Assembly: GCA_003669055.1 (NCBI GenBank)
Contig: RAYB01000011.1
Coordinates: 62,001 to 126,000, forward strand
DNA from: a bacterium 1XD21-70
GTDB lineage: Bacteria; Bacillota; Clostridia; Lachnospirales; Lachnospiraceae
Reading direction: 5' to 3'
Length of the DNA: 64,000 nt
Of the stretch, positions 44,590 through 46,312 are shown in pieces. A program made the position numbers and the translations under genes. The notes below the pieces were generated by a model, which saw only the letters and a program-made list of their open reading frames with translations, searched no databases and was not told the DNA's origin. Numbering within the stretch: position 1 is the first letter of the stretch; every line of letters begins with the position of its first letter.

Positions 44590-44636
44590 AATGGGTACCT
44601 CCTACCATTTATTTGTATTTTCCCAGAAACAAAAAT

Positions 44637-44689
44637 CACATATTTGTGTAAATCATGAGGCCTTACATCATGACTTACACAAATATGTG
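44637..44689 (-). promoter_or_regulatory. Long leader hairpin of the cold-shock gene
   Basis: The arms at 44637-44658 and 44668-44689 are 22 nt long with a single mismatch and a 9-nt loop; the left arm begins CACATATTTGTGTAAATCAT. On the minus strand the stem is followed by ATTTTTGTTT and then, 40 nt on, the ribosome binding site. It could be a terminator-like attenuator or a temperature-dependent leader. Confidence 0.65.
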
Positions 44690-44719
44690 AATCAATAGCC
44701 CATGTGAAAATACTAGCTA

Positions 44720-44748
44720 ATCTTAACACCCTTTTTTACTAATGTCAA
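44720..44748 (-). promoter_or_regulatory. Promoter of the cold-shock gene
   Basis: -35 TTGACA (44748-44743), 17-bp spacer, -10 TAAGAT (44725-44720). The start near 44713 places the long hairpin inside the 5' leader. Confidence 0.6.
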
Positions 44749-44842
44749 GGCTTTTAAACCATTTTTCGAGCAATTATTCTAAACTTTTTATGAATTATCA
44801 TTGTCACACCAAATCACTTGCCCCCCAGTTACATTCAATACT

Positions 44843-44868
44843 AAAAAACCGCGAAAATTCGCGATTTG
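44843..44868 (-). terminator. Second terminator downstream of rplL
   Basis: On the minus strand AAATCGCGAA pairs with TTTTCGCGGTTT and a T run follows (TTTTTTAG). No gene lies between it and the first rplL terminator. Confidence 0.6.
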
Positions 44869-45057: not shown

Positions 45058-45102
45058 ACAAAAAAACTTCCGGCACCCGCAGAATGCAGGCACCGAAAGT
45101 CC
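45058..45102 (-). terminator. Terminator of rplL
   Basis: ACTTCCGGCACC (45065-45076) pairs with GGCACCGAAAGT (45088-45099), allowing G-T pairs; the minus strand follows with TTTTTTTG. Confidence 0.8.
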
Positions 45103-45130
45103 CTTTCCATCCTAAAAATTCCGGCCTTGT

Positions 45131-46076: not shown

Positions 46077-46145
46077 GAATATCTACCTCCTGTTAGATTT
46101 TCTCGACTGCGTCCTAATGCAAAAACCATAGGTCTCTACATCTAG

Positions 46146-46277
46146 AGAAAAAACCGCTCCGGCACAGACGGCAGAGCGGCTCCATAAAATCATCTTAATC
46201 CGTTGATTTGTATGTTCCCTCGGCAGGCGGTTGTAACCTTATGCCTCACGGCACCTGCTGTCTTCGGCAGTCAATAC
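46146..46277 (-). ncRNA. L10 leader with attenuator
   Basis: The rplJ transcript begins near 46277 and carries a leader of about 200 nt. It ends in a terminator hairpin (CCGCTC at 46154-46159, GAGCGG at 46174-46179) followed on the minus strand by TTTTTT. Position and design match the L10-binding leader of Firmicutes (kink-turn type), where bound L10-L12 favours termination. Confidence 0.7.
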
Positions 46278-46283
46278 TTGCAA

Positions 46284-46312
46284 ATCATACCACGGCCGCT
46301 TCATTTTGTCAA
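46284..46312 (-). promoter_or_regulatory. Promoter of rplJL
   Basis: -35 TTGACA (46312-46307), 17-bp spacer, -10 TATGAT (46289-46284). It lies between the rplA terminator and the L10 leader. Confidence 0.8.

Follow-up and report, generated by a model that had tools for sequence, protein, structure and literature searches.

Cold-shock proteins (Csps) can rank among the most abundant proteins of the cell, e.g., CspB and CspD of Bacillus subtilis (PMC8307031), and how they set their own level is an open question outside a few model species. The cspA mRNA of Staphylococcus aureus has a 5'UTR of 113 nt with a long hairpin that is cut at -53 and -88 by RNase III, and the processed form is more stable and better translated; the paper also proposes, from data not shown, a similar hairpin in Listeria (PMC3386247). 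In B. subtilis, suppressor point mutations fall in the leaders of cspB and cspC, and the one that was tested raised expression about twofold (PMC8307031). Csps also act on intrinsic terminators. In Escherichia coli, CspD increases read-through, as do CspA, CspC and CspE according to earlier work cited in the same paper (PMC9765468). In B. subtilis, the loss of CspB and CspD changes read-through, and the Csps mostly favoured termination, a sign opposite to that in E. coli (PMC8307031). Since Csps alter read-through at intrinsic terminators, with opposite signs in the two species, autoregulation by this route would be plausible.

We analysed a stretch of 64,000 nt of a Lachnospiraceae genome (the window), in which a csp gene on the minus strand is preceded by a structured leader (Table 1). 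The product has the cold-shock domain, and its matches to the NCBIfam Csp models stay under their cut-offs. Given the promoter-like site at 44748-44720, the RNA is expected to start near 44713, which gives a leader of about 124 nt. Together with the start codon (128 nt, 44713-44586) it folds as one unit, at -48.4 kcal/mol (z -7.1), and none of 200 shuffled sequences is as stable; the plus-strand stretch 44600-44760 gives a z of -5.8, again with 0 of 200 shuffles. These folds confirm the hairpin that a sequence-only reading had placed in the cold-shock leader: it is genuine and no chance fold. That reading gave it arms of 22 bp at 44637-44689 with one mismatch. The stem, hereafter P2, is slightly longer (23 pairs, 44636-44690), and the supposed mismatch reads as G·U in the csp-sense RNA, so that all 23 pairs are standard, and they are paired in the sense fold. 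The distance from the end of the hairpin to the AGGAGG of the ribosome site was likewise revised, from 40 to 32 nt. Each arm of P2 is itself partly palindromic, and both together form an inverted repeat. The hairpin begins about 23 nt past the predicted transcript start and its stem is abutted by a U-tract (UUUUUGUUU on the minus-strand leader). The first nucleotides of the predicted transcript, GUAUUUUC, find their partner in GAAAAUAC, immediately upstream of the ribosome site, and in the modelled fold the 23-bp hairpin is thus part of a larger structure enclosed by this outer helix, P1.

Table 1. Features of the csp leader in the window (all on the minus strand).
Feature	Position	Strand	Evidence or remark
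P2 5' arm	44668-44690	-	23-bp hairpin; two-sided changes in 20/23 pairs of alignment A4
P2 loop	44659-44667	-	varies among relatives; 2-17 nt across the 93 rows of A4
P2 3' arm	44636-44658	-	pairs with 44668-44690; two-sided changes 20/23 in A4
U-tract TTTTTGTTT	44627-44635	-	directly 3' of the P2 stem
P1 5' arm and predicted transcript start (~44713, GTATT)	44698-44713	-	7 nt past the -10 box; in the fold, partner of 44605-44630
Segment with the P1 3' arm (GTTTC, GGGAAAATAC)	44605-44630	-	leader fold and swap test
Shine-Dalgarno AGGAGG	44598-44603	-	sequence
csp gene, 68 aa	44383-44589	-	PF00313 CSD, E 2.6e-27
Sigma-70-type promoter of csp, TTGACA-17-TAAGAT	44720-44748	-	consensus scan; 3 sites there vs 2.4 expected by chance

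An L10 leader (RF00557, 68.8 bits, 46138-46285, minus strand) lies upstream of rplL (L7/L12 domains) and of a presumed rplJ, both of which precede csp on the same strand. Two terminator-like hairpins (44846-44867 and 45062-45104, minus strand) stand between rplL and the csp promoter and would separate csp from the ribosomal operon.

The pairs of P2 covary among relatives. Of 24 genomes of the same genus, 22 yielded a csp orthologue locus in a protein search over 61 genomes, and the element is present in all 22. Alignment A2 holds 17 hairpins from csp orthologue loci, picked by motif rather than by model; one of them belongs to a different genus and one to a different family. In A2, 7 of the 23 pairs show two-sided changes. 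Alignment A4 was assembled from the matches of a covariance model (R1, see below) and has 93 sequences, with the csp-linked L093, L094 and L109 left out for their very long loops. In A4, 95.2% of the cells are standard pairs and 20 of the 23 pairs have two-sided changes, figures that are biased towards the R1 structure because the sequences were drawn from R1 matches. None of 500 shuffles reaches any of five measures and the signal is lost when the partners are slid, bearing in mind that the shuffle statistics here, and the swap statistics below, ignore relatedness among the sequences. On the csp strand, G·U pairs number 159 and A·C mismatches 23, an excess which indicates that the csp-sense transcript is under selection.

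The element is closely associated with csp genes. The runs of R1 and of a second model, R2, built on 93 sequences, used strict filters that dropped weak matches. R1 has matches in 45 of 200 genomes of the family and 22 of 391 of the class (E <=0.01), which amount to 86 distinct places; at 79 of these a csp gene follows on the same strand within 700 nt. Every place scoring at least 38 bits has the gene downstream (71/71), vs 8 of the 15 below that score. Several csp-linked copies, from two to four at separate places, occur in each of fifteen genomes. R2 matched 46 of 200 family genomes (E <=0.001), 24 of 391 class genomes and 7 of 398 phylum genomes (both E <=0.01). Among the places new to this model, 7 of 9 have csp, the two misses scoring 37.9 and 36.9 bits. 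Outside the class, csp follows at 6 of 7 places, the six lying in five genomes and the miss being L135 (33.7 bits). Five places from the class run fare less well, with csp at two (L147, L150) and none downstream of L148, L149 and L151 (42.4, 42.3 and 32.1 bits). With csp-less matches at 32 to 42 bits, the specificity for csp holds at high scores and not at all middling ones. At L149 (1501-1563), the similar hairpin has a T-rich tail and stands behind a TTGACT..TATAAT promoter-like site, and the gene downstream looks esterase-like (named by eye from its sequence).

A plain DNA pattern run over the genomes of named species found at least 123 matches in at least 120 loci. Among the 123 matches listed, 108 precede a csp gene. 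Another 10 fall antisense to a csp leader, a consequence of the nearly palindromic hairpin, and for 5 the locus ends first; none lacks csp for another reason. Named carriers among the matches listed include Hungatella hathewayi (Lachnospiraceae), Lachnoclostridium phytofermentans, Coprococcus comes, Acetobacterium bakii (Eubacteriaceae, like the Lachnospiraceae in Clostridia) and Anaerovorax sp. Judged by these comparisons, the element is a conserved leader RNA, presumably acting in cis, of one class of clostridial csp genes, and it also occurs beyond the family and, in some genomes, beyond the class. A plasmid or viral origin was considered and rejected: the leader has no blastn match in plasmids and the pattern no exact match in viral contigs.

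For the analyses of leader anatomy we used 151 distinct csp-linked leaders, i.e., the 181 gathered minus duplicates and minus 9 in which no csp could be read on the strand of the pattern. Twelve of them have a second subtype of the hairpin, with an AGAGATT-like 5' arm, which shares genomes with the first subtype and stands there before other csp genes (L042 and L102 vs L105; L048 vs L114 and L115). In L022, L023 and L030, extra hairpin-like inserts lie between the U-tract and the ribosome site, and L030 keeps the arm of the outer helix.

The position of the hairpin is tied to the promoter. Upstream of 150 leaders with enough sequence, a promoter-like site (score >=9) has its -10 end 26-37 nt before the hairpin in 142. 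A site of this score is found in 149 of the 150 real upstream regions and in 59 of 150 shuffled ones; because shuffled sequence reaches it so often, more weight falls on the fixed spacing. The distance from the hairpin to the ATG varies from about 45 to 109 nt (5th-95th percentile). A nearly fixed distance to the promoter with a variable one to the ATG suggests that the hairpin is anchored to the transcript start, and speaks against a masking of the ribosome site.

The U-tract is equally regular. At least five T occur in the first 8 nt past the modelled end of the stem in all 151 leaders, T having frequencies of 0.86, 0.99, 1.0, 1.0 and 0.92 at positions 1-5 and decaying thereafter. The mean U-tract score of the leaders is 4.77, vs 4.74 in 110 terminators at the 3' ends of csp genes. 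When the stem end is taken from a fold of the element alone, the count of T within the first 8 nt falls to 3 or 4 in 18 of the 151, probably because bases of the U-tract then pair with the 5' flank. The stem departs from the 3' terminators in lacking a G/C-rich base: the arm nearest the U-tract has 28% GC, vs 59% in those 110. A local terminator scan of the window did not call P2, probably because the loop is longer than the 8 nt it allows.

The outer helix was assessed by exchanging partners between leaders. The own pairing of P1 beats the swapped partners in 100 of 127 leaders, or in 113 of 142 when a longer 5' segment is used, and is no better than swapped in 29 of the 142. The length of the outer-helix run compared with shuffled sequence (7.3 vs 6.1, 134 leaders) is a weak test, and it is on the swap test that we base the case for P1. 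Since its 3' arm lies past the U-tract, P1 is possible only in RNA that has been read through. We found no clear antiterminator within the leader in pairing tests on 142 leaders: for the 5' segment, the hairpin's own 3' arm is a better partner than swapped arms in 67 of 142, and the real segment pairs with that arm somewhat better than a shuffled one, in 91 of 142. A protein could stand in for the antiterminator. Apart from P1, pairings that involve the 5' segment or one of the hairpin arms did no better than swapped ones (142 leaders) and were set aside.

What stands before csp is thus a conserved, covarying, promoter-anchored hairpin with a U-tract and an outer helix. A hairpin that is directly followed by a U-tract and keeps its distance to the promoter has the anatomy of an attenuator, and the weak base of the stem suggests a leaky, adjustable one. 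The best-supported reading, to which we give an even chance, is therefore that of a leaky intrinsic attenuator, with the read-through mRNA locked at its 5' end. RNA polymerase would start about 23 nt upstream, make the 23-bp hairpin and then the U-tract, where a share of the transcripts would stop as leader RNAs some 80-90 nt long. Being A/U-rich, the stem base would make the stop weak and read-through tunable, most simply through feedback by the level of Csp or through slow transcription at low temperature. In the read-through mRNA, the 5' end would pair behind the U-tract (P1) and so be locked, which may protect it. The sequence-only reading had proposed attenuation at normal temperature; its anatomical side held up in all 151 leaders, and termination itself is what we infer from that anatomy. 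Several points go against an attenuator: the A/U-rich stem base, the lack of a clear antiterminator within the leader, the leaders in which P1 does no better than swapped, the terminator scan that did not call P2, the Csp effect of opposite sign in B. subtilis, and the sequence of the upper stem, which is conserved beyond what termination alone requires.

The main rival is a maturation by RNase III, as in S. aureus cspA, in which cutting of the hairpin would shorten the leader of the csp mRNA and raise both the stability and the translation of that mRNA, and in which the U-tract would be a single-stranded site for Csp binding. We regard this as possible though doubtful; it is compatible with attenuation, and the two are not mutually exclusive. 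RNase III requires a minimum length of double-stranded stem, and P2 is long enough (23 bp in the window, with a median of 24 bp in the folds of the 151 elements). The staphylococcal precedent argues for such a cut, since a leader similar in length to that of S. aureus here encloses a long stem. Processing alone, however, has no need for a U-tract abutting the stem, which every one of the 151 leaders has, and in S. aureus it is not regulated by cold shock (PMC3386247).

A role of P1 and the hairpin in guarding the mRNA against decay from its 5' end, with no conditional control, seems improbable to us. P1 does hold the predicted first nucleotides in a helix, the hairpin is anchored to the promoter, and other csp leaders, inspected by eye, seem to begin with short hairpins. 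But such a stabiliser requires neither the U-tract nor a conserved stem sequence, and the second csp paralogue of the genus manages with no R2 match (6 of 6 genomes examined). In the window genome this paralogue (L274, G000:C42:28400-29300) has, by eye, only a short GTTGC..GCAAC hairpin near its predicted start.

The sequence-only reading had also offered a cold thermosensor, here taken as an RNA whose melting or refolding between 15 and 37 C exposes the ribosome site. The location in a cold-shock leader and the precedent of E. coli cspA (Rfam RF01766) invite this idea, which the predictions for 127 leaders make very unlikely. P2 is predicted to be paired throughout from 10 to 70 C (91, 90 and 82% at 10, 37 and 70 C, respectively), the ribosome site is slightly less open in the cold (unpaired 0.63 at 10 C vs 0.72 at 37 C), and the spacing of the hairpin is tied to the promoter. 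Melting is thus unsupported by equilibrium folding, with the proviso that energy models miss kinetic refolding and proteins. The idea that the partly palindromic arms, with their inverted repeat, make a DNA operator or a mobile palindrome rather than an RNA element is hardly tenable: the excess of G·U over A·C on the csp strand disfavours an operator, the loop is variable, and a mobile or dispersed repeat is ruled out by the single copy in the 4.3-Mb assembly, where neither a second full-length DNA match nor a second match to the arm pattern was found.

The element is a sharply defined, covariation-supported RNA in a large group of mostly gut bacteria, and it makes the control of termination by Csps in their own leader a testable question, for which the genus's second csp gene, being without the element, is a possible internal control. 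Going further, we tentatively suggest an undescribed RNA family, a csp attenuator across Clostridia, in which Csps open the weak stem or hold the U-tract and thereby set their own read-through. If true, this would provide a natural self-reporting readout of the RNA-chaperone capacity of the cell, and there would be separate attenuator subtypes on different csp paralogues of one genome.

In the window, no family of Rfam 15 reaches its gathering cut-off on the hairpin, and L10_leader is the only one to reach it anywhere. Scans of 12 relatives gave sub-threshold cspA matches and weak unrelated ones only. Two leaders scanned alone stayed far below the cut-offs, mostly with microRNA models (best 32.4 bits against a cut-off of 83). 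A term search for cold shock or csp had no match in the main texts of four surveys, of which one treats premature terminators (PMC2965389; the others are PMC8040213, PMC6429828 and PMC2864571), and searches of the open-licence PMC literature listed no description of this element. With no Rfam family at the cut-off and no term match in the surveys, the element appears to be an unlisted leader RNA of an already known kind.

With the E. coli cspA thermoregulator the element shares a structured csp leader, and differs in that no temperature-driven refolding is predicted here. RF01766 matches in relatives include the csp coding part and stay sub-threshold (the best of 12 has 74 bits vs 78), and the two leaders scanned alone give none at E <=1; as the matches depend on the coding part, we rejected a thermoregulator of the E. 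coli type. The leaders of B. subtilis cspB and cspC are likewise conserved csp 5'UTRs, described as two cold-shock boxes. The S. aureus cspA 5'UTR has in common with our element a long hairpin near the 5' end of the csp mRNA and a leader of about 110-125 nt; compared by description, it differs in that the accessible text mentions neither a stem-abutting U-tract nor an outer helix (PMC3386247). Finally, the intrinsic-terminator attenuators of Firmicutes share with it the promoter-proximal hairpin and U-tract in the 5'UTR, whereas the csp element has no clear antiterminator and combines an A/U-rich stem base with a conserved stem sequence.
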